The notes under the pieces are model-generated. The model saw nothing but the letters and a program-made list of their open reading frames with translations. It did no database searches and was not told the DNA's origin. From positions 1,526,501 through 1,590,500 of the forward strand of contig CP136052.1 of assembly GCA_032620915.1 (NCBI GenBank): a stretch of DNA of 64,000 bases, read 5' to 3'. This document shows positions 3-16,286 of the stretch, piece after piece; position 1 is the first letter of the stretch, and every line of letters begins with the position of its first letter. The translations under genes and the position numbers were made by a program. The stretch comes from Oscillospiraceae bacterium NTUH-002-81. GTDB lineage: Bacteria; Bacillota; Clostridia; Lachnospirales; Lachnospiraceae.

Positions 3-44
3 GAGACGGTGATCCTGCCGCTGGTGCGGGGAAATGACGGATGA
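3..44 (+). CDS. C-terminal end of a truncated upstream gene, possibly a sensor kinase
   Basis: Only the last 13 codons lie in the window, reading ETVILPLVRGNDG before a TGA that overlaps the ATG of the next gene (ATGA). Ending in a T-V-x-L-P-L strand just before the stop is common for the ATPase domain of GHKL-type sensor kinases, which usually sit next to LytTR regulators. The stop overlap with the LytTR gene fits such a pair. The fragment is too short to identify firmly. Confidence 0.4.
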   Translation, partial: ETVILPLVRGNDG

Positions 45-757
45 TTCATATGTTGATTGTGGACGGGCAGGCAGATGAGCTTTGGCTGATCCAGCGGGAA
101 GCGCATGAGCAGGCGGCGCTGCTGACGGATGAACGATGGGAAATTCGCGGCATGTTGCACCTGGAGGTGCAGGAAATCAGCGAAAGTGAGGTGCTGGATA
201 TTGTATATCTGGATGTGACGGATGCGCAGGGGCTGGCAGCTGCCATGACTGTCCGAAAATGGTGGAAAAATGTATATATGGTGCTGATCGTATCGGAGAG
301 TCTGTCGCCGGTGCAATATCTGCGGCCGTCGATCATGGCGGCTTCCGTGCTGCTGCGCCCGGTGGAACAGATGCAGGCGGCAGAGAGTATCCGGGAGGCG
401 ATTCACTGGCTTCCAGGAAAAGCAGATGACGAGGATGTGTTTGTATTCGCTGACCGGGATGGAAAACTGAGGATTCCTTATGGACAGATTTTATATTTTG
501 AGGCGCGGGCCAAGAAGATTTATATTGCTCTGCAAAATGAGGAATACGGGTTTTATGATTCCATGGATCACCTGGTACAGAATCTGCCAGACTATTTTTT
601 TCGATGTCACAGAAGTTATATTGTGAATATGCATCACCTGCGGCGGTACCAGGCTTCTCAGGCGCTCTGTATTCTGACGGACGACGTGGAGATTCCGGTG
701 TCCCGCAGCTATCGACCACTGATGAAGGAGAAGTTTTCAGTATGGAAAACGGAATGA
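41..757 (+). CDS. LytTR-family DNA-binding regulator with a degenerate receiver domain
   Basis: This is a 238-residue two-domain protein. Residues about 130-235 are a LytTR DNA-binding domain: YFEARAKKIYI, the FFRCHRSYIVN segment and the VSRSYRPLMKE end are typical. Residues 1-120 look like a CheY-type receiver but lack the usual acidic pair after the first strand (VDG instead of VDD). They also carry Arg in the place of the conserved Lys before Pro (LLRP). Phosphorylation may therefore be weak or absent (inference). The start overlaps the previous stop, and the next gene begins inside its 3' end, so these are one operon. Its position upstream of the WXG100 genes suggests that it controls the type VII locus, but no operator was identified. 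Confidence 0.85.
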   Translation: MIHMLIVDGQADELWLIQREAHEQAALLTDERWEIRGMLHLEVQEISESEVLDIVYLDVTDAQGLAAAMTVRKWWKNVYMVLIVSESLSPVQYLRPSIMAASVLLRPVEQMQAAESIREAIHWLPGKADDEDVFVFADRDGKLRIPYGQILYFEARAKKIYIALQNEEYGFYDSMDHLVQNLPDYFFRCHRSYIVNMHHLRRYQASQALCILTDDVEIPVSRSYRPLMKEKFSVWKTE

Positions 758-1416
758 TCATAAAAAAACAGGAATTGTGTTTTCTTCTTTTCTGCAAAGG
801 CGTGAAAAAATGCCCGGGGATATTTGCGGTGGATGGGAAGCAGGATGCGGCACAGATTCTGAAGGCGCTTTTTCAAAAAGGGTGGCTGGAAAACACCGGT
901 GAACATTTCCGGGTCAGGGAGCCGCTGGCGAAGCTGCTGGGGCAGATGGCGAAGGCAGAAACTCTGGTGGCGCTTTATCCGGGAAATCCAGCGAGAGAGT
1001 GGACTTATCTGTATCCGGGGGAAGAAATCGTCGCGGTGCAGGAGGTACAGCAGCGAAAAGAGGCCGTTCGTCTTTTTTTCATAGAAAAAGACCAGTTTCA
1101 GGATTTCCTGCGGGAGCAGGGGCTGACGGGAGAAGACGACAGCTGGGAGGCACTGCCCTATCGGGATATGGAAGAAATACTGCCGCAAACGCTGGATAAC
1201 AGAAAGGAACTGCAGGCGTATCCGTGGATTTCCCTGCTGGCGGTACAGATGGATGCAAAAAACCGGGAAAAAGCAGGGCAAACAGGGGTTGCGCGCCTGG
1301 GTATTCACAGAATGCTGGTGGAAGAGGATGCCATGGATGAGACGAGAAAGACTGGGCCGTACCGGGAAAGCTTCCTTGTGTCCTGGCTGGAAGAGGCTTT
1401 AAGCGGTGGAAGATAA
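742..1416 (+). CDS. Uncharacterised protein of the type VII locus
   Basis: This 224-residue protein has no signal peptide or membrane segment. The start at 742 overlaps the LytTR stop by 16 bases; a longer form from 604 would run through the LytTR domain and is less likely. Residues about 30-75 (QILKALFQKGWLENTGEHFR) look like a small winged-helix-like segment followed by a helix with LAKLLGQMAKAETLVALYPG. That layout recalls the EspG/DUF5081-like chaperones of ESX systems, which bind secreted WXG or partner proteins. I cannot confirm membership by eye. Its place between the regulator and the yukD-like gene supports a role in type VII secretion. Confidence 0.6.
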   Translation: MENGMIIKKQELCFLLFCKGVKKCPGIFAVDGKQDAAQILKALFQKGWLENTGEHFRVREPLAKLLGQMAKAETLVALYPGNPAREWTYLYPGEEIVAVQEVQQRKEAVRLFFIEKDQFQDFLREQGLTGEDDSWEALPYRDMEEILPQTLDNRKELQAYPWISLLAVQMDAKNREKAGQTGVARLGIHRMLVEEDAMDETRKTGPYRESFLVSWLEEALSGGR

Positions 1417-1428
1417 GAGGTGACAAAC
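1414..1428 (+). promoter_or_regulatory. Orphaned ribosome-binding site left of the IS110 insertion
   Basis: Just after the stop of the preceding gene lies AGAGGTGACAAAC. The same signal, GAGGTGACAACT followed by GTGGCAGAG, starts the WXG gene at 4041. On the far side of the IS110 element the yukD-like gene begins with GTGGCAGAA at 2999. The simplest reading is that this site once drove the yukD-like gene and that the element separated it from its start codon. Confidence 0.55.
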
Positions 1429-1490
1429 TATAAACAGTCAAGTGTTTTTTTGGAATTTTATGGTTTATAAAAAAGGGTAACCTTAATAAA

Positions 1491-1518
1491 CCATCTGAAA
1501 ATAGCGTATTTCAGATGG
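1491..1518. repeat. Inverted repeat (hairpin) at the 3' end of the IS110 element
   Basis: CCATCTGAAA at 1491-1500 pairs perfectly with TTTCAGATGG at 1509-1518 around an 8-base loop. It lies 26 bases beyond the transposase stop. There is no T-tract on the transcribed side, so it may be an end-recognition structure or a weak terminator. Confidence 0.6.
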
Positions 1519-1543
1519 AGGGTGTTAACTTATGAACATGAGC

Positions 1544-2720
1544 TCATCGAAGTTTCTTTGGGTCAAAGTCGATATCTTGACTCTCCAATGCATAGATGAC
1601 TCTGACAAGCTTCTTAGCTACATGAGTGATAGCAACCCGGTGAGGCTTGTTCTCTGAACGTTTTCTGGCATAGTATGTAGCAAATGTCACATCAAACCGT
1701 ATCAACGGCAGACAGCAGTTGATAAGCACATATCGTAGCTGTGAGGAACCGTGTTTTACCATCTTGCCATTATATGCTTCAGTTCCTGACTCATGTACGC
1801 TGGGTTCTATTCCGGCAAAAGCAAGCATCTGGTTAGGACTGGAGAAGTTTGAAATATCACCATATTCAGCGTAAATGATAGCAGCGGATATAGGACCGAT
1901 ACCTGGAATGGACATATAGTGTGGATGCACTTCATCTACCAGTCTGTTGATTTCGCTTTCTAATGTTTTGATTTCATCTACAAGGGACTTGTATAAGGTC
2001 AGCAGACTATTAAGTTCTACATCGAAGATAGAGTTGTTTACACCGACTGTATTAGCGGCAAGTTCTTTCAAGCGAATAAACTGCTGGGGGAGAAAATTTT
2101 CCTCTGGAAATGGATCGAAGTTTCTCATAGGATGCGGAATTCATTCTTGCTATCTTTTCAGCGGAGCCGTAGTTTTCAAGGAGGTATAAGGCAGTTTTAG
2201 ATAAACGCTCATGGAAGAACGGTTTGAACTCTGGAAAGGTGTGGTCAAGAACGTTTGTAATTTTAACAAGATAAAAAGAACGCTGGCGAACCAGCCTGTC
2301 CCGTAAACGAGTTAATGACTTTAAGGAATAAGCGTGGTAAAATCCTTTTGAATGGGGTTTGTATTCAACAGTCATTAACCAACGGGCTATTAACTCGCAG
2401 TCGATAGAATCGGTTTTGGTGCGTCGGAGAGTCTGAGACTTCTTGAAATCCTTGATTAAAACTGGATTAATTTCCATGAAGCTGTGGTTGGCATTTTCAA
2501 GGAAGAGTTCAAGATTGAGGGCATAATGGGCAGTTGATTCAAACCCTATTTTTATATCCTCAGGAGTGGAGAGTGAATTTAAGATAAGATTTAGTTGTTC
2601 AAAACCGGACTTATCATTTTTGAAAGTAAACTTTGAAACAACTTTCTGGTTGGCTGCTGATATGATGCAACAGTCGTGCTTGTACTTGGAAATATCGATT
2701 CCAACAAAGTACATGGTCAT
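1544..2720 (-). pseudogene. IS110-family transposase, apparent frameshift
   Basis: The N-terminal part (from 2720; MTMYFVGIDISKYKHD) has the DEDD RuvC-like fold: the first Asp in GIDISK, a Glu in GFESTAHY and the segment RTKTDSIDCELIARWL. The C-terminal part has the transposase-20 domain, with SIPGIGPISAAIIYAEYGD and FAGIEPSVHESG. The two halves lie in different frames. Removing one base from the G5 run at 2086-2090 joins them as RGKFSPQQFIRLKEL, the expected family sequence, and gives about 391 residues. A clear ribosome site (AAGGAGG) precedes 2720. As read it is broken, but see the note on homopolymer errors in this window. Confidence 0.88.
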
Positions 2721-2998
2721 AGAAATAAGCCTCCTTATAAGATATTTAGCACTGCTGTCTTCCACAGAGAATTCGGCTGCGTAATCACGTAAATACAAAC
2801 GTCATGCGTTAACAAACTAATTACCAGTAGTAGACGAAAAGCTGTGGTCTGAGTCACCTCGGAACAGTCAAAGCCGTAATGAAATAGGTACAGATCCACA
2901 GTGCTGTAATTATTATAATGGAGTATTCAATAAAGCCCAAGAGATTGGGAGAAAGGGGAATAATCCATTACCCTCAAAAGAGGATAATTGGATTATAC
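2721..2998 (-). ncRNA. Putative bridge-RNA-bearing 5' end of the IS110 element
   Basis: These 278 bases upstream of the transposase contain no convincing coding sequence. IS110-group elements are known to encode a bridge RNA of roughly 180 bases in the flank upstream of the transposase, and length and position fit. At the outer edge, 2962-2996 forms a strong hairpin: TAATCC and CCCTC pair with GAGG and GGATTA around AAAA. The assignment rests on family knowledge and position. The guide loops were not identified. Confidence 0.35.
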
Positions 2999-3256
2999 GT
3001 GGCAGAAATGATTCTGGTGAACGTATATGTGCCTGCGGTGGAGCATACGTATGATTTTCGATTGAATGAAAGCTTTGCACCGGGGGTGATCGTCAATGAA
3101 TTGTGTGAAATGGTGGAACAGAAGGAACAGCTGTCCCCGGGAAACGGCAGGGAGAGGCTGATGCTGTTTGATGCGTCTCTGCAAAGAATGCTGCCATTTG
3201 ACCGGTCGCTCCGGGAAAGTGGCGTAGTGGATGGACATTTGCTGATTCTGGTTTGA
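2999..3256 (+). CDS. YukD/EsaB-like ubiquitin-fold protein
   Basis: The gene encodes about 85 residues. MILVNVYVPAVEHTYDFRL followed by a helix (VIVNELCEMVEQKE) and an ending GVVDGHLLILV match the WXG100-associated ubiquitin-like proteins YukD and EsaB. These small cytosolic factors are needed for type VIIb secretion in Firmicutes. The start is uncertain. GTG at 2999 is preferred because GTGGCAGAA matches the start of the 4041 gene, while ATG at 3008 is the alternative. No good ribosome site remains in front of it, because the IS110 element ends directly upstream, so expression may be reduced. Confidence 0.75.
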   Translation: MAEMILVNVYVPAVEHTYDFRLNESFAPGVIVNELCEMVEQKEQLSPGNGRERLMLFDASLQRMLPFDRSLRESGVVDGHLLILV

Positions 3257-3355
3257 AAAATCAGCTATTCGTCAGATAAAAGCGGTTGTCTGTCAGCTTT
3301 TTTCTTATCCGGCAGCAGGGCTGTGGTAATCTACAGATACAGGGAGGACATACTG

Positions 3356-3712
3356 ATGCTTCAGGTTTCGTTGGGACAAATGCATCTTTGCGGTGAGGAA
3401 CTTTCCGCTTTCCGGGAAAAGCTGGGATCTTTGGAAGGCTGCCTGGGGGATTTGATTTCGAAGTTAAAAACCATGGAATCCTTTGCAGACGTTTCCCAGT
3501 GGCTGGAAAGAGAAGAAGAAAATCTGGATATGCAGAGGCGAAAGGCAGCGGAACTGGAGGAAGCGCTGACGATGATCTGCCGTTTTTATGAAAAAAGCGA
3601 GACGGAAATTGTGGACTGTCTGGAAAACGGGAAGCCCCAGACCATGGATACCCCACTGACATTCACATCCACGGGAAGTGACGAAAAGTGGGCATCACTG
3701 ATCACGTTTTAG
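3356..3712 (+). CDS. Small helical protein of the type VII locus
   Basis: The protein has 118 residues and is almost all helical. Residues 1-80 (LSAFREKLGSLEGCLGDLI, then VSQWLEREEENLDMQRRKAA) are coiled-coil-like and end in EIVDCLENG. The tail from about 95 is polar and probably flexible. There is a strong ribosome site (GGGAGG) 8 bases before 3356. It lacks a WXG motif but has the size and helical layout of small partner or chaperone proteins that accompany WXG100 genes. It lies 12 bases before the next WXG gene, in the same operon. Confidence 0.6.
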   Translation: MLQVSLGQMHLCGEELSAFREKLGSLEGCLGDLISKLKTMESFADVSQWLEREEENLDMQRRKAAELEEALTMICRFYEKSETEIVDCLENGKPQTMDTPLTFTSTGSDEKWASLITF

Positions 3713-3724
3713 AGGAGAAATCAA

Positions 3725-4030
3725 ATGGAAAACAGGTACATGGAAGTGCAGTCTGACAGACTCACACAGGACACGGAAGTCCTTCGCGGAGACATTGAGA
3801 AAGCCAGACAGGAGATGGAAGCGCTGACAGAGCTTGTGGCATCGCTGCACGTACACTGGGAGGGCGCCGCTGCAGGGGTGTTTGGCCAGCGATTCGCAGA
3901 AGGAATGACTGCTTTTGGTGACAGTCTGAAGGAACTGGCATCCTTTGCAGAAAGTCTCGGCTTTGCATCAGAGAAATATGTGGAATGTGAAAATTCCGTG
4001 GCGGACATTATTGCTGCCGTCAGAATGTGA
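3725..4030 (+). CDS. WXG100-type secreted protein
   Basis: This 101-residue helical hairpin has the central turn HWEG, the WXG motif, near residue 42. The C-terminal helix carries YVECE, which fits the YxxxD/E signal of ESX substrates. WXG100 proteins form four-helix-bundle dimers and are exported by the EccC/EssC ATPase; no such ATPase lies in this window. A ribosome site (AGAGGAG) precedes the ATG. It belongs to a row of five WXG-type genes. Confidence 0.85.
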   Translation: MENRYMEVQSDRLTQDTEVLRGDIEKARQEMEALTELVASLHVHWEGAAAGVFGQRFAEGMTAFGDSLKELASFAESLGFASEKYVECENSVADIIAAVRM

Positions 4031-4040
4031 GGTGACAACT

Positions 4041-4362
4041 GTGGCAGAGGAACTGCACGTCAGCATTGCTACAGAGCAGCTGCGGGAGACTGCGCGGGAT
4101 ATTGCAGTAAAGGTATCCGCTCTGAAAGCGGTGTTTGAGGATATGGATATGGCCGTGAAACGGACAGAAGGATACTGGATCGGCGAAGCAGCGGAAGCGC
4201 ATCGGGAAGCCTATCGCCGGATGTCGCCGGAGCGGGGAAGCAATTCTCGCCTATCTTTTCGGACAGGCGGACGATCTGGCCGCCATTGCGGGGATCTGGG
4301 AAGGAAAGGAAGAAGAGGTAAAGGAGCTGGCGCAAAGCCTTCCTGGCGATGTGATTGTATAG
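4041..4362 (+). pseudogene. WXG100-type protein, apparent frameshift
   Basis: A GTG start (MAEELHVSIATEQLRETARD) follows GAGGTGACAACT. The first 62 residues form one amphipathic helix and the turn YWIGEA, a WXG motif. The frame is lost in the G4 run at 4234-4237. Removing one G continues it as PEREAILAYLFGQADDLAAI and ends in KELAQSLPGDVIV, about 106 residues in all. That ending is nearly the same as the end of the 5027 protein (VELAQSLPGDVIV), so the two are paralogues. As read, it would give a longer, basic, non-family tail ending at 4394. Confidence 0.75.
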
Positions 4363-4375
4363 GAGGAACGAAAGA

Positions 4376-4684
4376 ATGGGCAATGACAGGATAGAGATTG
4401 ATTTTCATGCTGCTATGGAAAGTGCGGATGCTCTGGATCAGATCGCAGCAGATCTGGAAAATGCACTGAACAACAGCTACGGAGAGGCGATGATGCGTCT
4501 GTCAGAGAGCTGGAAGGGGACAAATGCCAGCTTCTATCAGGAAAAAGCGGCAGCGCTCAAGGAACAGATCCAGAGCTCTGTCAAACAGATTCGTTCGGGG
4601 GCGGAGGAAGTGAGAAGAACCGCAAACCGGATCCACAAGGCGGAATTGCTGGCGAGAACGCTGGCTGAGGCAAGAAATTATTGA
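4376..4684 (+). CDS. WXG100-type protein
   Basis: The protein has 102 residues, with two helices around SWKG (WXG) near residue 44 and a C-terminal helix rich in Lys, Arg and Glu. AGGAGG lies 9 bases before the ATG. It ends ...LLARTLAEARNY and has no clear YxxxD/E signal, so it may travel as the partner of another WXG protein that has one (inference). It is in the same operon as its neighbours, 19 bases before the next start. Confidence 0.8.
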   Translation: MGNDRIEIDFHAAMESADALDQIAADLENALNNSYGEAMMRLSESWKGTNASFYQEKAAALKEQIQSSVKQIRSGAEEVRRTANRIHKAELLARTLAEARNY

Positions 4685-4703
4685 AAAACAGGAGGAATGA
4701 AAG

Positions 4704-5006
4704 ATGGCACAGATCACAGTAACCATGTCACAGTTAAAGACACAGGCGGAACAGCTGGAGAGTTTGAATGAGCAGTTCAAATCACAGGTGGCGGAGCTGG
4801 AAGCACTGGAACAGCAGCTTGGCACCATGTGGGAGGGCGAGGCACACACAGCTTTTCACAATGCATTTTCCAGTGATAAGGTACAGATGGATAATTTTTA
4901 CAATACCATTCGCGTCTATGTGCAGGCGCTTCTGGCAAATGCGGATAAGTACAGTCAGGCAGAGATCGCAAGTTATAATCTGGCAGCAGAGAGAACATAT
5001 CGGTAG
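4704..5006 (+). CDS. WXG100-type protein (EsxA-like)
   Basis: At 100 residues this is the most canonical member of the row. It starts MAQITVTMSQLKTQAEQLES, has MWEGEAHTAF at the turn (WXG near residue 47), and carries YSQAE near the C-terminus as a YxxxD/E signal. It is the best candidate for the core EsxA-like secreted protein. AGGAGG lies 9 bases upstream of the ATG. Confidence 0.88.
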   Translation: MAQITVTMSQLKTQAEQLESLNEQFKSQVAELEALEQQLGTMWEGEAHTAFHNAFSSDKVQMDNFYNTIRVYVQALLANADKYSQAEIASYNLAAERTYR

Positions 5007-5026
5007 AGCGGGAAAGGAGCAGCGTT

Positions 5027-5341
5027 ATGGATGGATTATTAAGAGTAGTACCGGAAGAGTTAGTTGCAGCGTCAAATGAATTTTCAACAAAGGCAGGAAC
5101 CGTGGGAAATTTAACTTCTGAGATGATGAATCTGGTTGTCAGCTTGTCGGGCGGCTGGGAAGGCGAGGGTTCTACCGCCTATATTGGGAAGTTCAAAAAT
5201 CTGGAAGAGGATATTCAGAAAATTGTGCGGATGATCCAGGAGCATTCTTCTGATCTGAATGAAATGGCAAACCGCTATAAGGGTGGCGAGGCAGAAGTGG
5301 TGGAGCTGGCCCAGTCTTTACCCGGGGATGTGATTGTCTAA
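5027..5341 (+). CDS. WXG100-type protein with conserved LAQSLPGDVIV tail
   Basis: The protein has 104 residues, with GGWEGEG (WXG) near residue 44 and YKGGE as a likely YxxxE signal. The last 13 residues (VELAQSLPGDVIV) are shared with the frameshifted gene at 4041, while the DNA of that tail differs at many third positions. This suggests selection on the tail at the protein level. It lies 20 bases after the EsxA-like gene and 12 before the next gene. Confidence 0.85.
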   Translation: MDGLLRVVPEELVAASNEFSTKAGTVGNLTSEMMNLVVSLSGGWEGEGSTAYIGKFKNLEEDIQKIVRMIQEHSSDLNEMANRYKGGEAEVVELAQSLPGDVIV

Positions 5342-5353
5342 TAGGGAGCGTGT

Positions 5354-5962
5354 ATGAGCAGAGAAGATGGTGTGATCTGCTATATGGAAAAACGATATGG
5401 GAAAACTTTCACCTGTGAGGGCGAAGTCCATGGGATGTTTGGCTCTAAGTCGATTACTGTCCGTCTGAACTGTCAAGATCATCCAGAAATGCCGGTGCTG
5501 GCATCTTATCTGGAAAAGGACGGAGCAGTGTATTACGGGGATAACTTTCCGGCGGTATATTTTCATAAGGAAGCCTGTGGACAGCTTCAGCAGGCAGTAG
5601 ATGCAGTATTTGCAAATGTCCGGCTGTACTTTAAAGTACCGGATGTGGTGCTGCCGGTGGAGGATCCGAAACGATATACGCTCAGAGACTATATGGCAGA
5701 TCCGCTGGCTTTCAAATCCGTCCGTATTCTCGCGAAAGAAGCATTGGATGAAAACAGCTTTCAGGCGCTGATGGAGACTTTTGGCCGTGCCGGGATCGCG
5801 GTAAAAGGAATCGCGGCGGTTCCGGCGGACTGGAATGCAGTATCTGCCCTTACGGAAAAAACAGTGGATGATTTTCTGGCAAATGCAGATAACGTGCAGA
5901 CACAGGTCATTTTCAAATATGAAAAAGGAACCATCGTCACGGAAAGATGGAGGAAGTCATAA
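5354..5962 (+). CDS. Uncharacterised protein next to the type VII lipase
   Basis: The protein has 202 residues, with no signal peptide and no membrane segment. The N-terminal half (KRYGKTFTCEGEVHGMFGSK, then SITVRLNC) looks like a small alpha/beta domain. The rest includes YTLRDYMADP and a region ending QVIFKYEKGTIVTERW. Its stop (TAATG) overlaps the start of the lipase-like gene by one base, so the two are translationally coupled. By position it could be a chaperone or the immunity partner of the lipase. I recognise no family. Confidence 0.6.
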   Translation: MSREDGVICYMEKRYGKTFTCEGEVHGMFGSKSITVRLNCQDHPEMPVLASYLEKDGAVYYGDNFPAVYFHKEACGQLQQAVDAVFANVRLYFKVPDVVLPVEDPKRYTLRDYMADPLAFKSVRILAKEALDENSFQALMETFGRAGIAVKGIAAVPADWNAVSALTEKTVDDFLANADNVQTQVIFKYEKGTIVTERWRKS

Positions 5963-7596
5963 TGGGAAGTGCGGCAGATTCCAGAAAAACACAGATCGCA
6001 GCGATGCTGAACATGTTTGAGTATCTGGATTATCATATGGGCGAACCGGGAACAGATCTGCGGACGCTGGTCAGTGAGGCCGAGCAGTATTTTGCCAGCA
6101 ATCCATCCCAGGCGGACGGGAGCAAGGAAACCATGCTTCGGATCTTGAAAGATGCCATTGATCATGTGGATGGTCTGGGGGATCTTCGACTGGCGATGTC
6201 AGACCATGGTGGCGCGATCGAGGCGGATGCCTTTTTCAGTGACAGCAAAAATCAGGAGGCCTATGTGGTGTACCGGGGAACTGGCGATGGAAAGTGGCTG
6301 GATAATGGAAGAGGCATGACAGAGGAACTGACAAAGTCTCAGCAGGCGGCCAGCACATTCTGCGACCGGTTTGTTCAGAACTGTGGGATCGACGAAGATG
6401 CAGATCTCACGGTCACAGGACATTCCAAAGGGGGAAACAATGCCCAGGCTGCGACGCTGAATGCGGACAACCGAAGATATATTGACCGATGTATTTCCTT
6501 TGACGGACAGGGCATGTCCAATGCGGCGGTGGAACGGTATCAAAGAATGCCGGGGTATGAAGAGCAGCGGCAGAAAATGTATGCGGTCAACGGGGAAAAT
6601 GATGTGGTCAATGAATTGGGAAATGAGGTCATTCCAAAAGAAAATACGACTTACATAGAAACGAATACCGGGATTTCGGATATACTGGAAACCCATATGC
6701 TGGAATATCTTTTTCACAGAGAGGACGGAAGCTACGGGTATACGCTGAATGAGGAGACCGATCAGAAAAGCCTGGGAGAATATGCACACCGTCTGTCGGC
6801 ACTTCTGATGAATATGCCGGAGGAAATACGGGCACACTGTGCCATGACGCTGATGCAGCTTCTGGAGCTGAGCGAGGAAATGAAAATAGGATATGACGGC
6901 GACCATGCTTCCTATGCAGATATTTCCGGCTTTATCAAAATCGGGATTCCAACGATTATTTACAGTCTGGTGGACACCCCGGAAGGGAGAGAGGCCATGG
7001 CAGATATTCTGCGGGATATGCTGGTTTCCTACGAGGCTGAAAACTGTGCAGTGAAAACCGTGGCGCTGGTAACCGCTTCTGTTTTGTTAATTCCGGTGAT
7101 TTTTCCGGTAACCGTGACAATCACGGCGGTTGCTTTGGCGGGTGTTGCCTTTGTTATGGATATCTGTGCTTCATTGGAGGCATTGAGAGCAAAGATGGAA
7201 GAGCTTCGGGGATATGTGCAGCAGTGTATGGAGATGCTTCAGCAATACTGGAATCATGCCGGTGATCTGATCCAGCATGTGGTTTCCGGCCGTCCCATCA
7301 TCAAAAACGTAGACTTTTCTGTGGATACAGGAAGTCTGTATGCTAGCGCTTCCGGGCTGTACGATATGCAGCAATCCATGCAGCATGCGGTGGACAGACT
7401 TGGTCAGATCCGGCGGACGCTGCCCATGCAGGGTGTCTCAGCAAGTGCGCTGAAAGTATACCTTGCTTTTTCAATGAGCAGTGTCAATCAGACTTCAGGA
7501 GCGGTCAGTCGTCTGGGGCAGGCGCTGGAGCAGACGGCCAGGGCTTATGCACGGTATGAAAAAGAGATTGCAGCACATGCTGCATTATATGAATAA
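5962..7596 (+). CDS. Lipase-fold type VII effector with C-terminal secretion-like helical domain
   Basis: This 544-residue protein starts at 5962 behind GGAGGA; an upstream ATG at 5947 overlaps that ribosome site. Residues about 60-300 are an alpha/beta hydrolase of the Mbeg1-like (DUF2974) type. VVYRGTGDGKWLDNGRGM precedes the nucleophile elbow GHSKGG, with Ser155, followed by an Asp in NGENDVV and a His in ETHMLEYL. Residues about 367-403 are strongly hydrophobic, either one long or two short membrane segments. Residues about 450-544 are a helical domain ending in YARYEKEI, with a YxxxE pattern. This order, enzyme first and LXG/WXG-like helices last, resembles the reversed T7SS lipase TslA of Staphylococcus aureus. 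The substrate is unknown. Confidence 0.72.
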   Translation: MGSAADSRKTQIAAMLNMFEYLDYHMGEPGTDLRTLVSEAEQYFASNPSQADGSKETMLRILKDAIDHVDGLGDLRLAMSDHGGAIEADAFFSDSKNQEAYVVYRGTGDGKWLDNGRGMTEELTKSQQAASTFCDRFVQNCGIDEDADLTVTGHSKGGNNAQAATLNADNRRYIDRCISFDGQGMSNAAVERYQRMPGYEEQRQKMYAVNGENDVVNELGNEVIPKENTTYIETNTGISDILETHMLEYLFHREDGSYGYTLNEETDQKSLGEYAHRLSALLMNMPEEIRAHCAMTLMQLLELSEEMKIGYDGDHASYADISGFIKIGIPTIIYSLVDTPEGREAMADILRDMLVSYEAENCAVKTVALVTASVLLIPVIFPVTVTITAVALAGVAFVMDICASLEALRAKMEELRGYVQQCMEMLQQYWNHAGDLIQHVVSGRPIIKNVDFSVDTGSLYASASGLYDMQQSMQHAVDRLGQIRRTLPMQGVSASALKVYLAFSMSSVNQTSGAVSRLGQALEQTARAYARYEKEIAAHAALYE

Positions 7597-7641
7597 AATC
7601 GTGGTACAAGCGTTGTCATACGTTCAGGGGGGAAGGTGTTG

Positions 7642-8742
7642 TCATGATTCCTTTTCCCTGTTATCATTATATGTTTTTAGGCGTTCCACTTCTACAGCAT
7701 AACTGGATCTCAGTTCAAGCAAAGATCTCACAAGGTTATGCATATCAATATCTTTGAAAAGGTCGGAAGAATCATCCCGGTTAATATCCTCCTGGAGAAA
7801 ACGGAACCAGTGGCTGTCATCACTGTTGTCAACTGTCATTACCCCATTTTTGGTCTGGAGAGACAATTCAGCTATGAGCTGCATGGAATTTGTGTTAAAA
7901 GGTTTTTTGTCTGTTTCTGAATTGGTGATATGTTCCAGGCCCATTTTGAAAGCTGCAATATCTCTGCCGCGGCGACCGTCATTGGTATCTACAACCAGTG
8001 CGGATCCACCGATATAGGATTCCCGTTTTATTTCATTTACAATGCGAATATTCCAGAACATGGTACAGCGGCATGGATCGTCTTCTATGGATGTAAAATG
8101 GATACGGATACAATTATTGGTGAAAAGGATATCCTCATGCTCAGCGATATATAAATTGAGAGATTCCAGTTTTTTATTGCTGATAAAGCTTGTGTGTTCA
8201 TGTGCGAAAGCTTTTTTCAAATTTTCGGGTGTGTCGAAGTTATTCAGAATGGCTTTTACTTGTGGCAGTTCAAAGTCCTTGATGCCGAGAATCATGCATG
8301 CATAGTACTTGCCTTTGGTTTCGAATAATTTGAAATACCCTGTGTATGCGTGGTAAGCCGAGTGGGATACCATATAATAGCAGCGAAAAAGCTGGTTGGT
8401 AAATAAAGTGATATTATCAAAAGAATGGTACGTGTATGTTTGTGTAAAGTATTCTTTTGGAAACTTACGTTTGAAATCACTTGTCGGCAAATACAGATCT
8501 TCTGCTGCGAGGCTGTTTTTTGTTGAATCAGATAAATAGTGGCAAAAGCTGTCAGCAATCTGTCGTGCTGTTTTTACAGACAAATTTTCTCCATAGAGTG
8601 CTTTTTTCAATGTGGAAAGACTGATATTTAAGTTGTAGAATGTCTGTTTTGGAACATATTTTGACAAAGTAAATGCAGGGCTGACGCAATCAATCAAGTA
8701 TTTGATATTGTTTCCGTATGTTTCTGAATTCTTTTTAGGCAT
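7642..8742 (-). CDS. Putative transcriptional regulator, divergent from the island operon
   Basis: The protein has 366 residues and no membrane segment. The N-terminal 70 residues have helix-turn-helix spacing: ISLSTLKKALYGENLSVKTA then RQIADSFCHYL, which resembles a two-helix DNA-reading unit followed by a dimer helix. The remainder is a mixed alpha/beta region with no motif that I recognise. It is transcribed away from the 8899-12713 operon. A 26-bp perfect palindrome lies between the two starts, as expected for an autoregulator. Codon use is AT-richer than in the flanking genes. The regulatory role is inferred. Confidence 0.6.
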   Translation of the reverse strand: MPKKNSETYGNNIKYLIDCVSPAFTLSKYVPKQTFYNLNISLSTLKKALYGENLSVKTARQIADSFCHYLSDSTKNSLAAEDLYLPTSDFKRKFPKEYFTQTYTYHSFDNITLFTNQLFRCYYMVSHSAYHAYTGYFKLFETKGKYYACMILGIKDFELPQVKAILNNFDTPENLKKAFAHEHTSFISNKKLESLNLYIAEHEDILFTNNCIRIHFTSIEDDPCRCTMFWNIRIVNEIKRESYIGGSALVVDTNDGRRGRDIAAFKMGLEHITNSETDKKPFNTNSMQLIAELSLQTKNGVMTVDNSDDSHWFRFLQEDINRDDSSDLFKDIDMHNLVRSLLELRSSYAVEVERLKTYNDNREKES

Positions 8743-8768
8743 AAAATAATACCATCCCTTCTGTAAAA

Positions 8769-8794
8769 TATAATAAGATATATATCTTATTATA
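8769..8794. promoter_or_regulatory. 26-bp perfect palindrome, likely operator of the divergent promoters
   Basis: TATAATAAGATA at 8769-8780 begins a perfect 26-bp dyad centred between 8781 and 8782. Imperfect outer arms TTCTGTA and TACAGAA flank it. It lies 26 bases from the start of the putative regulator and about 105 from the first operon gene. Its AT-rich halves also contain TATAAT-like -10 elements on both strands. Confidence 0.55.
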
Positions 8795-8898
8795 ACATAT
8801 CATACAGAAAAGTAAATATGATAAATATCTTGAATTGGCTATTATAGGAGGATAAAATAAAAGAAAATAAATTGATAGTAATGAAGGGAGAATGAAAA

Positions 8899-9566
8899 AT
8901 GATTCATGAAACAAAGAAACCCGTAATTGTAATTTCCGGCCCGTCTGGGGTGGGAAAGTCAACAGTCATTCATCATTTTGTTGCCCTGCACCCGGAGTTT
9001 GCGCTTGTTCGTTCGGTGACGACAAGAAAGAAAAGAAATGACGATGACTGTTACCTTTATGTAGACGAAAGTACGTTTGATAGCATGGAACTGGCTGGCG
9101 AATTCCTGGAGACAGACCGGTATCTGGGGTATCCTATGGGACACCTCGCCAGGAATTAGACCGGCTCTATGAAGAAAACAAGATTCCCATCTTGGATATC
9201 ATTTATTCTGGCATGAAAAATCTGAAAGCAAATAAGGAATTTGACATGAAAACCATCTTCCTCTGGGCATCCCCGCATGTATTGTTAAAGCGTATTCGTG
9301 AGCGTGAGGGAGAAGACAAAAATAGGTACAAGCATGCTTCCAAACTTTCATCTGCTATTGCCGCTATCGAGGTAAGTAGTGAGTACGATTTTTTGGTAAA
9401 TACAGAAAATGACATCGATGATACGACAGACAAATTAGAAAAAATCATACTGGGAGATGGTACTACATATAGCAGTGCTCGCAAAAAAATTGATATAGCT
9501 GAGTATATTTACAAAACAAAGCTGGCAATAGCCATTTATTTCGAGAGGGAGAAACGGAAAAAATGA
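8899..9566 (+). pseudogene. Guanylate-kinase-like P-loop protein, apparent frameshift
   Basis: The N-terminus has the P-loop GPSGVGKS and the GMP-site segment RSVTTRKKR. After one G is restored in the G4 run at 9126-9129, the frame continues as LGVSYGTPRQELD, then ILDIIYSGMKNLK, IFLWASPHVLLKRI and YDFLVNTEND. These are all the landmarks of guanylate kinase, in order, over about 222 residues. As read it splits into 8899-9159 and 9192-9566. The lid region and overall sequence diverge from housekeeping Gmk, so the substrate may be different. It is the first gene of the island operon and overlaps the next by ATGA. Confidence 0.75.
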
Positions 9567-10534
9567 AAAGAAGAATAGTGAGTGCAGGACTTCTTGTGGT
9601 GGTTATGATGTGTGCCCTTTGGTGGGCACTGCATCTGTACCACCCTAGGAGGAAAGAGGTTGTAAATGTTTTGAAAGCTTCAGAGGATGAGACCATGAGG
9701 GCAAATGAAAATGAAATACAATCCGATTTGCCTATGAAATATATGGTAATGTTAGACAGCTGTTGTGAGATGAAATCATCCTTCAAAGGATACGGAAGCG
9801 GTGCGTATTTGAGAGAAGCCTTTCTTCTTTTTGGAAGCATTCTTGCAGAAGAAGATGAGATCCAGATATTTCCAGGTACTACAGCATCCGAAACAAAGTC
9901 ATCTTATGGCATATCTGGTGGTATGGATCTGCAAGAGATAAAAGCTGTCGTGGATCAGATACCTTATATAACAGAAAATCCGTCTTCCTCTTTGGTTGAC
10001 GAATGGGAAAGAAAAGTGATGGACGCGGCGGAAGCGGCAAAAGGAAAGGCAAATGTCAGGATTCTGACCATTTGCTGCCATAACCATAAAAAACAGCTGA
10101 GTCAAAACGATTTTTCTGCATTTCCCATGGAGCTTATTTCAGATGCACTGGAATTTTCGGAAGAGTATGCGGCTGATGATTGCATCATCGAAGCGAAAGA
10201 CTTTCCGCAGGCTATGTTTCGGGCAACCCCGTATCTGATGCTGCAGGAGAGTGATTTGATGACAGATCACTTCACCCTGTCCTTTCCGACACCTACGGAT
10301 CAGTTTTCTATTGTCCTGCAATCGACGTTTCCGGAGGTGATTTTTACTGATCAGGAGTATACATACAAGGGATTGATTTTGTCAAGCGGGAGAATATTAT
10401 ATCAGGTGCATATGGACAGCCCAACGGGAAGCGTGGAGATATTTCTGAACAAGAAAGAGAATCAACAGATCCAGATCATATATCCGATGAATGATGCTGC
10501 CTCGGACAAATGGCTTATTTTAAGGGAGGAATGA
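9563..10534 (+). CDS. Membrane-anchored extracytoplasmic protein of unknown function
   Basis: The protein has 323 residues. Residues 5-25 (IVSAGLLVVVMMCALWWALH) form a signal anchor, and the rest is outside the membrane. Residues about 52-100 (YMVMLDSCCEMKSS, then LREAFLLFGSILAEEDEIQI) have the strand-helix-strand layout of a von Willebrand A domain. The metal-binding DxSxS is replaced by DSCCEM, so normal metal binding is doubtful. The C-terminal part is probably beta-rich. The gene overlaps its neighbours at both ends (ATGA at 9563 and 10531-10534), which implies one translationally coupled operon. Confidence 0.65.
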   Translation: MKRRIVSAGLLVVVMMCALWWALHLYHPRRKEVVNVLKASEDETMRANENEIQSDLPMKYMVMLDSCCEMKSSFKGYGSGAYLREAFLLFGSILAEEDEIQIFPGTTASETKSSYGISGGMDLQEIKAVVDQIPYITENPSSSLVDEWERKVMDAAEAAKGKANVRILTICCHNHKKQLSQNDFSAFPMELISDALEFSEEYAADDCIIEAKDFPQAMFRATPYLMLQESDLMTDHFTLSFPTPTDQFSIVLQSTFPEVIFTDQEYTYKGLILSSGRILYQVHMDSPTGSVEIFLNKKENQQIQIIYPMNDAASDKWLILREE

Positions 10535-10539
10535 TGGAA

Positions 10540-11473
10540 ATGAAAGAATGGAAAGGGTTTTGTGATCTACATGTACACACCACAAATTCAGACGGGAAGT
10601 ACACACCGTATGAATTAGCAAGACTATGCATGGATAAGGGGATTCAGACTATTGCTTTTACGGATCACAACGTGATGTTGACGAAGAAGGAAATGAATGC
10701 GTTGCGAGAAAAATTCCCCGAGATGCATTTGATTGATGGTTCCGAAATTTCTGCAGCACACCAGTTGCTTTCAGGAAAAATGAAAGAAATCCATATCCTT
10801 GGATTATTTTTTAAAACCAACGGATAGATTGGAGAAGTTTCTCCTACAGAATAAAAACCGTGTAGAAGGCGAAACAAAGACACAGATTAAGGAAATGATT
10901 GCATTGCTCAATGGGCTGGGAATGAATTTTACATATGAAAACGTCGCAGAGATGTTTCCTGAAAAAATAATTGGTCGTATGGAACTTGCCCGGTTCCTGA
11001 CAGAAAAAGGAATGGTACGAACAGAAGAAGAGGCATTTGACACGTATATTGGAGATTCGGGAGAAAAACGCGCTTATGTTGAAAGAAGCGTACACTGTGC
11101 CAGTATGAAAAAAGTCATTGCCGAGATTCTGGAGGCAGATGGAGTCCCTGTGCTTGCGCATGTTTTTAATTATAGTTTTCCACCGCATGAGAGAAACTAT
11201 GAGAGAAATTATTTGATAAAAACCTTTGTGCAGGAAGGTGGTCTGGCGATAGAAGCCTTTTATAGTCCTTACATGGAGGCGTTACAGCAATATCTTTATC
11301 TTTTTTGTGCAAGGAAAAGAGGGCTGGGAGTCAGCGCCGGATCCGATTTTCATGGTTTTTTTGAACATGATTCACTGGAATGCAGATATCCTGCAGCAAT
11401 CGCCTGTCTGTTGGGGCAGATGGCCAGGGAGAAAAGAGGGATCGTGTGGGATGATGAGCGTGGGGGAGAGTGA
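10540..11473 (+). pseudogene. PHP-domain metal-dependent phosphoesterase, apparent frameshift
   Basis: The N-terminal half has CDLHVHTTNSDGKYTPYEL and TIAFTDHNV, the first metal motifs of the PHP superfamily. The C-terminal half has VLAHVFNYSFPPHE, GLAIEAFYSP and LGVSAGSDFHG, the remaining metal-ligand motifs. The frame breaks in the TTTTTTAAAA run at 10807-10816. Removing one base joins them to about 310 residues. The start at 10540 follows GGAGGA by 9 bases; 10531 is possible and would overlap the previous stop. PHP enzymes of this type act on nucleotides or phosphorylated sugars. The substrate here is not predictable. Confidence 0.75.
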
Positions 11474-11475
11474 GT

Positions 11476-11931
11476 ATGAAACAGGAGTATATTGAGGTTC
11501 TGGAAGAAAGGTTAAAAACGAAAGGATATGTTTTTGATAAGAGATGCAAAGAAGGAAAGGTGACGTTTGTGATCTATATGCAGACGGTAAGCCAGAGTGC
11601 CTTGTGCATGGAACTGGAACTGAACGAGAATGGTGTTGGACGACTGTTTTGCACTGTCATCCCTACTTTTCCGGGGAAAAATCGTGACGCTGTGGAAAAG
11701 GAGCTGAATCGACTCTTTTTCCTTTCTGAGATGGTTAAATTCGATATCGAAGAAGAGAGCATTGTGGCTGTTTCAGAGTTTGATATGAGAAAAGTTGAAA
11801 GAGCAGATGATACTATGCTAATACTATTTTCAAGGCTGCATACGTTTAAAAACCAAATTGAAGCAGCGCTTCCAGGGATTCAGTACGCAATATACAGAAG
11901 TGATATTGAAAATATGAGGAGTTCAATATGA
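11476..11931 (+). CDS. Uncharacterised small acidic protein in the island operon
   Basis: The protein has 151 residues and is cytosolic. The layout is helix (YIEVLEERLKTKGY), a beta-sheet region (KVTFVIYMQTV, SALCMELELN, GRLFCTVIPTF), then helix, which loosely recalls the YbjN/secretion-chaperone fold. No family signature is certain. The ribosome site GGGGGAG lies 7 bases before 11476. The gene overlaps the next one by ATGA, so both are made from one transcript. A chaperone-like role for a partner protein is only a guess. Confidence 0.6.
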   Translation: MKQEYIEVLEERLKTKGYVFDKRCKEGKVTFVIYMQTVSQSALCMELELNENGVGRLFCTVIPTFPGKNRDAVEKELNRLFFLSEMVKFDIEEESIVAVSEFDMRKVERADDTMLILFSRLHTFKNQIEAALPGIQYAIYRSDIENMRSSI

Positions 11932-12713
11932 TAAATATGCGACTTATTTTTGTATGCTTGTTCTATTTCCTGTTTTCACTGTTGCCAGCATGGTTGTTTC
12001 TGCTTTTTATTTTTTGCATAACGAAAAAGAGAGGAAAGTTCCCTAAGAAGCGAACATTTTATAAGGCGTTCGTGTGTGCGCTGTCGGCTGCGCTGGTGAT
12101 TCCATCTCTATATATAGCTGGAGTGATTATTTTTCACGTACCGAAGAAACAGGAGAAAACAACAGAAGAAAGTACGTCTGTTTTTGATGACTATACACTC
12201 CTGCAATATGATGAAGATGCAGCCTACAAAGAGTATGAAAATCAAAATCTATTTGGGAGGCTCAGGCAGTCGCACTGGGAGTTATGTGATACAGAACGAA
12301 AAATAGAGCTTCTTCAGGAGCTGGCTGACTTCGAGACACGGGAAAATTTACATATTCCAGAAGTGAAAGTGTATGGAGAAACATTACCGGAAACGATAGG
12401 TGGGCGCTACCGCGATGGAAAAAATGAGATCCAGATCAATGAACAATATTTGGAAAATGCATCTGAAGCTATCAGAATTTTGCTGCACGAGCTGTTTCAT
12501 AGAGAACAGGATTATTTGCTGACACACTTGAACATTGATGTAGATACAGCGAGAAATTATTATTTTAAACATATTAGACAGTGGAAGAAGGAAACGCTCA
12601 ATTATATTGGTTCTAACGGAGAATATGAACGTTACAGCGAGCAAACCCTGGAAAGAGACGCTGAATCATTCGCAGAGGAAGAATGGGAGAAGATTGAACC
12701 GTATATAAAATAG
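11928..12713 (+). CDS. Membrane protein with HExxH zinc-protease motif
   Basis: This 261-residue protein has two N-terminal membrane helices (residues about 5-32 and 48-70), followed by a soluble domain of about 190 residues. LLHELFHREQDY places HExxH at residues 187-191, and a conserved-looking acidic region EQTLERDAESFAEEEWE follows, where a third zinc ligand could be. The layout suggests a membrane-anchored gluzincin-like peptidase. The soluble domain would be cytosolic or external depending on the hairpin. It is the last gene of the island operon. No peptidase subfamily was recognised. Confidence 0.65.
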   Translation: MINMRLIFVCLFYFLFSLLPAWLFLLFIFCITKKRGKFPKKRTFYKAFVCALSAALVIPSLYIAGVIIFHVPKKQEKTTEESTSVFDDYTLLQYDEDAAYKEYENQNLFGRLRQSHWELCDTERKIELLQELADFETRENLHIPEVKVYGETLPETIGGRYRDGKNEIQINEQYLENASEAIRILLHELFHREQDYLLTHLNIDVDTARNYYFKHIRQWKKETLNYIGSNGEYERYSEQTLERDAESFAEEEWEKIEPYIK

Positions 12714-13457: not shown

Positions 13458-13956
13458 ATGAAAGAACCAAAGCTTCATGAGAGTGTTTTTATCGCGGACG
13501 GCGCGAAAGTGCTGGGCGATGTGGTGATGGGGGAGGATTCCTCGGTGTGGTACAATGCGGTGATCCGGGCGGATAATGCGCGGGTGACCATTGGAAAACA
13601 GACGAATATCCAGGACGGGGCGATCATTCATGTGGATCCGGACAGTCCGGTGAACATCGGAGATGGCGTGGTGGTGGGCCATGGAGCCATCATCCATGCA
13701 TGCACGGTGGGAGATCATTCCCCTAGTGGGCATGGGAGCCATCATCCTCAATGATGCTGTGATCGGAAAAGACTGCCTCATCGGCGCCGGGGCGCTGGTG
13801 ACCGGCGGTACGGTGATCCCGGATGGCATGCTGGTGCTGGGAAGCCCGGCAAAGGCGATCCGACCGGTAACGGAGGCGGAAAAAGCAGATATCCGGGAAA
13901 GTGCCGAAGGGTATGCCGCAGAGGCAAGACAGATGAAAGCGGAGCAGAAGAACTGA
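13458..13956 (+). pseudogene. Gamma-carbonic-anhydrase-like hexapeptide protein, apparent frameshift
   Basis: The protein is a left-handed beta-helix of the YrdA/PaaY type: GDVVMGEDSSVWYNAVIRAD, then TNIQDGAIIHV and VVVGHGAIIHACTVGD. His residues are at the usual zinc positions. The frame is lost in the C4 run at 13720-13723. One C less gives HSLVGMGAIILNDAVIGK and the normal C-terminal helix (165 residues). Members bind zinc or iron, and some hydrate CO2; many have no proven activity. A good AGGGAGG site precedes the ATG. A long-armed terminator follows at 14005. Confidence 0.82.
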
Positions 13957-14841: not shown

Positions 14842-16286
14842 ATGATAAGCAATGACGCGACAATTTTGAATATCAAACATGAAGTGCTGTATGAGGTGGC
14901 GAAGCTGGCCTTTGCCGGGACGCTGGAGGAGCGAAAGGAGGAGCTTCCTTTTGAGATGATCCCGGGGCCGAAGGCGCGGTTTCGCTGCTGTGTGTATAAG
15001 GAGCGGGAGGTGATCCGGCAGCGGATCGCGCTGGCGGAAGGAAAGCCGCCGCTGGGTAAGCAGTCGGACAATATTGTACAGGTCATTGACGCGGCCTGCG
15101 AGGACTGTCCGATCTCCCGGTTTGTGGTGACGGATAACTGCCAGAAATGTATGGGAAAGGCCTGCCAGCAGTCGTGCCGCTTTGATGCCATCGAGATGGG
15201 GCGGGAGCGGGCGCACATCGATCCAGCCAAATGTAAGGAGTGTGGCAAATGTGCCCAGGCGTGCCCGTATAATGCCATTGCCGATCTGATCCGGCCCTGC
15301 CGCAGGAGCTGTCCGGTGGATGCCATCAAGATCCACCCGGAGACGGGGCTGGCGACCATCGACGAGAGCCGTTGCATCAACTGCGGGGCCTGCATCCACC
15401 GGTGCCCCTTTGGCGCCATCAGTTCCCGGTCGTTTATCGTGGACGTGATCCGAGCAATCACCGGCGGTAAGCGGGTGATCGCACTGGTGGCACCTGCCAC
15501 GGAAGGGCAGTTCGGCCCGGGGATCACGATGCAGAGCTGGCGCACGGCCCTGCAAAAGGCAGGTTTTACGGATATGGTAGAGGTGGCCCTGGGGGCGGAT
15601 CTGACGGCGGCGTCGGAGGCGGAAGAGTGGGCGGAGGCCTATGCGAAAGGGGGAGGAAGAAGACCACCTCCTGCTGTCCGGCCTTTGTGAGCATGGTGCG
15701 CAAGCTTTACCCGCAGCTGGCGGGGCATTTGTCGGAGACTGTTTCTCCCATGTGTGCGGTTTCCCGACTGGTGAAGGCCAAGGATCCGGAGGCGGTGACG
15801 GTGTTTATCGGCCCCTGTGTGGCCAAGAAGCAGGAAGCGGCAGAGGGAAAAGAGGGAACGGCGGATTTCGCCCTGACTTACGGGGAGATCCGGGTGATTT
15901 TGAAAGCCAAGAATGTGGAGCTGCAGCCGGAGGAAAATCAGGAGCAGCAGGCCAGCGTTTACGGCAAACGGTTTGCCAATGCAGGCGGCGTGACAAAAGC
16001 GGTGCTGCGATGCATGGAAGAGATGGGACAGCCCACGGACAAGCTGCAGGTGATGGAGTGCAACGGCGCGGCGGACTGCAAGAAAGCGCTGATGCTGTTG
16101 AAGATGGGACGGCTCCCGGCAGATTTCATCGAGGGTATGGCCTGCGAGGGCGGCTGTGTGGGCGGCCCCAGCAGTCATATGGCCATTGCCGGATTCCAGA
16201 AGGAGCGCAACGCCCAGATCGCCCAGGCGGATGACCGGGGCATTCATGAAAATCTGGCACACTACGATTCTGTTGTGATGCATTGA
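14842..16286 (+). pseudogene. Monomeric [FeFe] hydrogenase, group B type, apparent frameshift
   Basis: The restored length is about 481 residues. The N-terminal part has ferredoxin-like clusters: DNCQKCMGKACQQSC, KCKECGKCAQACPYNAI and RCINCGACIHRCPFGAI. The C-terminal part has the three H-cluster signatures: TSCCPAF, GPCVAKKQEA and GMACEGGCVGG. The ACEDCPISRFVVTDNC opening is typical of the group B (B1/B3) monomeric enzymes of Clostridia, which reduce protons or oxidise H2 with ferredoxin. The frame breaks at the G5 run at 15649-15653. Adding one G gives AKGGRKKTTSCC. No maturase genes are in the window. Confidence 0.85.

Follow-up and report, generated by a model that had tools for sequence, protein, structure and literature searches.

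A cassette at positions 7642-12713 of the 64,000-nucleotide stretch that was analysed (the window; Oscillospiraceae bacterium NTUH-002-81, contig CP136052.1) is a genuine, foreign-looking accessory operon without counterpart in what was searched, and it is probably under repressor control. A minus-strand regulator gene (7642-8742) is divergent from five plus-strand genes (8899-12713; Table 1), with ORF positions that bear out the coordinates and gene order given in an earlier reading of the sequence alone, hereafter the original prediction.

Organization and composition of the cassette

All four junctions among the five plus-strand genes were 4-nt overlaps, three of them ATGA and one GTGA, in agreement with the predicted coupling by ATGA-type overlaps. 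The AT-richer composition was likewise upheld, with a GC content of 0.400 for the cassette and 0.522 for the remainder of the window. GC3 was 0.38-0.46 in the cassette versus 0.48-0.58 in the five genes tested from the upstream secretion locus and 0.65-0.74 in a further five tested downstream, which we take to be dut, argG, argC, lepA, and pyk. In three congeners, dut adjoined genes other than the cassette, and the short contigs (7-13 kb) that hold it contained no cassette match; together with the low GC3, this setting of dut is why we read the operon as acquired.

Table 1. Features of the cassette (window positions) and ATPase genes near relatives of its HExxH protein (positions in the named loci)
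Feature	Position	Strand	Remarks
Divergent regulator, 366 aa	7642..8742	-	Helical N-terminus and C-terminal beta-barrel
Perfect 26-bp palindrome, candidate operator	8769..8794	.	Inside 156-bp divergent gap
Guanylate-kinase-like gene, first frame	8899..9159	+	P-loop GPSGVGKST; PF00625 E 6.6e-8
Guanylate-kinase-like gene, second frame	9160..9566	+	PF00625 E 6e-6; listed ORF starts at 9192
323-aa membrane-anchored protein	9563..10534	+	TM 5-23 predicted; VWA-like by eye only
PHP gene, first frame	10531..10827	+	DLHVH, SDG, TDH, GSE, EIH motifs
PHP gene, second frame	10799..11473	+	LAH, GSDFHG; NF041577 E 3.2e-19
153-aa soluble protein, no family	11470..11931	+	No usable match
261-aa HExxH membrane protein	11928..12713	+	HELFH residues 187-191; two predicted TM segments
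Gene overlaps	9563, 10531, 11928; 11470	+	ATGA; GTGA
VirD4-type ATPase and nearby HExxH relative	L019 4469-8558; L086 1238-5384; L017 3707-6056; L082 5639-9236

The five genes stood as to their order, but the kinase-like and PHP genes did not stand as single frames, each running across two reading frames in the assembly, which the original prediction overlooked. Two neighbouring genes were also split between frames: one at 13458-13956, presumably gamma-carbonic-anhydrase-like, is a single frame in congeners L062 and L063, and another at 14842-16283 is a single frame in congener L063. Because both are intact in congeners, the assembly is suspect for indel errors, but the errors are not everywhere, since a 1634-codon frame immediately before the window start is unbroken. 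The breaks in the cassette may be assembly errors or real, and they bear on the alternative that the cassette is a decaying remnant, in which genes of separate origin were thrown together, two of them broken, and have no present function. Such a remnant would fit the two breaks, the nearby unbroken frame, and the lack of a second copy in the collections searched; the similarly split neighbours point instead to the assembly, and the four precise overlaps and the intact palindrome argue for recent function, and we consider this alternative improbable.

The divergent regulator and its candidate operator

The helical N-terminus of the regulator was read as an XRE-like HTH, and the predicted structure placed the C-terminal beta-barrel at about residues 108-273. 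Pfam gave no match for this protein, the model was of moderate confidence only (pLDDT 57.7), and Foldseek returned no match with an E-value under 1e-3. Structural matches indicated that barrels of this type resemble many unrelated proteins, designed ones included. Cap15, a defence protein built of a barrel with a membrane anchor, was among the closest natural barrels within the limits of this model and of the Foldseek result, at 7% identity; in the regulator, a predicted HTH takes the place of the membrane anchor. A PDB title describes Cap15 as a cyclic dinucleotide receptor. The modelled regulator barrel may hold a pocket for a small-molecule ligand.

The palindromic element predicted between the divergent genes proved to be a perfect 26-bp palindrome, whose 13-bp arms were reached in 0 of 2000 dinucleotide shuffles (longest shuffled arms, 11). 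A promoter-like site on the minus strand (8816-8789) has its -10-like hexamer within the palindrome, although promoter-like sites occurred in the region at chance frequency (14 observed versus 13.8 expected). The palindrome, the barrel model with its structural matches, the gene overlaps, and the TM predictions are among the grounds for the preferred explanation given below.

Relatives of the regulator were found in 2 of 298 other genomes, and in 2 of 391 with profile A2, a count that includes L118, a weak match to a protein of other appearance taken for chance. The regions tested next to the regulator relatives of L024, L025, and L117 contained no such palindrome. The relative in L117 adjoins a Schlafen AlbA_2-type protein (7810-10733), and that in L024 lies near an excisionase-like and integrase-like gene pair (6257-10585), all labelled by eye.

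The kinase-like and PHP enzymes

The predicted guanylate-kinase-like protein was borne out by Pfam Guanylate_kin (PF00625) matches in both frames, with 32.9 and 26.5 bits, both above the gathering score of 25.2. The two pieces, scored apart, reached 56.3 and 28.8 bits with TIGR03263, against an equivalog cut-off of 160. Elsewhere in the same genome is a separate gmk-like gene; comparison by eye showed ILEIEIQG in gmk versus ILDIIYSG in the cassette gene, with the E and Q of the former replaced by I and S. A phosphonate route of PhnN plus PHP (TIGR02322, NF041661) was set aside, as its matches were weaker than those to guanylate kinase and RNase AM.

Pfam also recognized the predicted PHP phosphoesterase, with PF02811 at E 5.6e-9 for the first piece (ORF taken from 10510) and no match for the second. 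The best NCBIfam matches of the two pieces were RNase AM (Rnm/YciV) and 3',5'-nucleoside bisphosphate phosphatase, with bit scores for the pieces scored apart of 53.3 and 54.5 (cut-off 375) and of 47.2 and 69.1 (cut-off 400), and PDB matches were 9etk and 7ug9 for the first piece and 2yb1 for the second. The cassette PHP shares the metal-motif layout of these enzymes, and most of the motifs are kept (DLHVH, SDG, TDH, E, H, LAH, GSDFHG). One metal-motif His is replaced, the cassette reading GRME in place of R-x-H, where 29 of 29 other PHPs have His; with Glu in place of the family His, activity of the cassette PHP is not certain.

The genome carries a second PHP gene of its own, and among 298 other genomes of the family the best match to the cassette PHP was in L025 (G152). 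The cassette and L025 PHPs grouped together in the PHP tree (support 96/87), both on very long branches, and shared GEKR, present in no other row of the comparison, from which duplicates were removed and to which L052 yielded no row. Unlike the RNase AM and bisphosphate phosphatase PHPs, the cassette protein lacks R..RN and KPxxxLGTG, and both motifs are also missing in L025. R..RN was present in 27 of the 28 other PHPs compared, the sole exception being L038, whose gene is split in two ORFs (L107), and in the PHPs of L045 and L053 a single residue departs from the KPxxxLGTG pattern. In PMC9410882, the 5'-phosphate pocket of RNase AM is described as lined by Arg107, Arg110, and Arg141, and by spacing the R..RN motif would correspond to Arg107/Arg110. 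The PHP enters our preferred explanation on the strength of its largely kept metal motifs and of the loss of R..RN in both the cassette and L025.

The 323-aa and 153-aa proteins

One predicted TM segment confirmed the membrane anchor of the 323-aa protein, but its VWA-like label was not sustained, with no Pfam or NCBIfam family (VWA included) at E-values up to 1 and no meaningful PDB sequence match. The AlphaFold2 single-sequence model was poor (pLDDT 40.7). Relatives of this protein were found in 0 of 115 other genomes, and of the 153-aa protein in 0 of 189 other genomes of the family.

The HExxH membrane protein and the adjacent secretion locus

The last gene encodes the HExxH membrane protein that had been predicted, with both the motif and two predicted TM segments in place. 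E188, H191, and E242 were invariant in 9 aligned sequences, and H187 varied; the protein thus has the gluzincin-type combination of HExxH with a downstream acidic residue, and E242 is a candidate third zinc ligand. Since the two TM segments flank a loop with 7-8 Lys/Arg, the peptidase domain is predicted to lie outside. Weak matches to SprT-like and DUF6782 metallopeptidases surrounded the motif, but the SprT-like score was 22.9 bits against a curated cut-off of 25.6, and the cassette protein is instead membrane-anchored. Relatives in L012 (7586-8749) and L014 (7699-8781) carry EExxH, the first His being Glu, and are possibly inactive members.

Relatives of the HExxH protein occurred in 9 of 298 other genomes of the family and, with profile A1, in 17 of 391, several of them weak; profile matches in G073, G360, G130, G101, and G596 (E 9.5e-6 to 8.7e-4) were outside the long stretches surveyed. 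We surveyed 21 loci, of which 19 kept an ORF at E 1e-3 and two (L020 and L089) kept none and were counted as misses. A VirD4-type ATPase lay within 2 kb of the relative in 4 of 21 loci (L017, L019, L082, and L086, with L093 weak), and a HerA-like ATPase, labelled by eye, in another 4 of 21 (L018, L088, L090, and L091). The latter loci contain a recurring unit of HerA-like ATPase, HExxH protein, and, directly after the latter, a 96-98-aa protein (L018 5447-9249); in L087 (584-880) the small protein follows the HExxH gene with no ATPase in view. A ClpP gene adjoins the VirD4-type ATPase in L019 and L086. We know of no prior characterization of the association of this family with VirD4- or HerA-like ATPases.

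Upstream of the cassette, matches to LytTR, YukD, four WXG100 proteins (one below cut-off), and an Mbeg1-like protein define a type VII secretion (T7SS) locus at 41-7596. The 1634-codon frame, stop-free and presumably EssC-like, runs up to the window start (L064), and L064 also holds what we take to be kinase/PP2C-like genes upstream. Within the locus is an IS110-type transposase in two overlapping minus-strand frames (1544-2798; Pfam was run on 2052-2798). The cassette could be a T7SS accessory in which the outward-facing peptidase and the anchored protein deal with proteins being secreted or coming in, while its other genes provide regulation and support. The adjoining upstream matches and 1634-codon frame and the ATPases near HExxH relatives speak for this role, but the cassette comes with a regulator and a divergent gap of its own, its GC3 is below that of the secretion genes, and Pfam found no WXG100 match among its proteins, and we judge it unlikely.

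Recurrence and comparison with known systems

Co-occurrence of the whole unit at other loci, proposed as a check on the original prediction, was not borne out: the collections searched yielded no second full copy, and only pairwise links were found. The cassette DNA matched no plasmid or phage, and no second copy was detected with the 323-aa protein (viral contigs, plasmids, phages, and genome contigs), the HExxH protein and the regulator (each against plasmids and viral contigs), the second PHP piece (genome contigs and plasmids), or the PHP pair alignment (viral contigs). The scans of contigs pick up only close relatives and can miss near records, and the kinase-like and 153-aa proteins were searched in some collections only. 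Weak matches to cassette or neighbour proteins in L104, L106, L109, L112, L113, and L114 were taken as chance.

One pairwise link was in L025, where the PHP gene and a regulator-family ORF lie head to head about 0.1 kb apart, and this divergent arrangement of a PHP of the same subfamily counts in favour of the preferred explanation given below. Against plasmids, the L025 PHP found only distant PHPs below 60% identity (28 records) and the L025 regulator nothing. The stretches examined around the regulator relatives of L024 and L117 held no convincing PHP, and 0 of 20 other PHP neighbourhoods (the 19 other-genome places next after G152 in the list of PHP matches, and the genome's own second PHP) held a regulator relative at E 0.05. 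A guanylate-kinase-like gene lies directly 5' of the HExxH gene in L019, 1 of 21 HExxH loci.

The cassette matches none of the known systems tested. PADLOC gave only weak matches for its proteins, the best (E 1.2e-4) being the P-loop stretch, and no CBASS CD-NTase was among the PADLOC and Pfam matches of the cassette proteins. CapH/CapP and ImmR/ImmA are switches of an HTH protein with a metallopeptidase and, like the cassette, combine an HTH-like regulator and an HExxH protein in one locus. The CapP-type protease is cytosolic and cleaves its regulator, whereas the cassette peptidase is predicted outside the membrane, which makes regulator cleavage by it unlikely. The titles and abstract openings returned by a literature search did not describe this gene set.

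These comparisons bear on a nucleotide-signalled defence, in which infection would alter a nucleotide, the barrel regulator would derepress the operon, and its products would end or survive the infection. The likeness to Cap15 favours it, and enzymes of the PHP and kinase-like types could control how much of a nucleotide is present, but PADLOC gave no convincing match, the genes do not recur as a unit, Pfam recognized no nucleotide cyclase or killing domain, and the proteins tried against plasmids and phages found only distant ordinary PHPs; defence is one of several options and a quite unlikely one. Still less likely is a fuller nucleotide-signalled system, new in kind, with a repressor family that fuses an HTH to a Cap15-like barrel and senses a cytosolic nucleotide, a partner PHP, from a subfamily that travels with this regulator, that hydrolyses the nucleotide, a kinase-like enzyme that makes or recycles it, and a membrane-arm effector.

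Proposed function and implications

Our preferred explanation, held tentatively and at somewhat less than even odds, is an acquired accessory operon with a ligand-released repressor and two arms in an envelope stress response. After horizontal acquisition, the HTH and barrel repressor would sit on the 26-bp palindrome and silence both its own gene and the operon, until a small ligand, plausibly a nucleotide, freed it. A cytosolic arm would consist of the kinase-like enzyme and the metal-dependent PHP phosphoesterase, the latter with phosphorylated nucleotides or similar phosphates as substrates, and an outward-facing arm of the anchored 323-aa protein and putative zinc peptidase. The two arms would act jointly, as their operon structure suggests. 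Against this explanation stand the limited regulator model, with no close Foldseek match and a barrel resembling many proteins, the frame breaks in two of five genes, the lack of the palindrome in the tested regions next to regulator relatives, and the PHP Glu where 29 others have His. Of the original prediction, a regulated, foreign-looking set of nucleotide-phosphate enzymes and membrane parts is supported; a mobile system, for which recurrence at different loci was to be the sign, is not, as no second whole copy was found.

Should its ligand prove to be a nucleotide, the regulator would represent a transcription factor whose barrel resembles, among others, that of a bacterial cyclic-dinucleotide receptor, and the same operon would encode a candidate hydrolase of that nucleotide. 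Regardless of the regulator's ligand, the recurrence of the HExxH family beside VirD4- and HerA-like ATPases deserves a survey.
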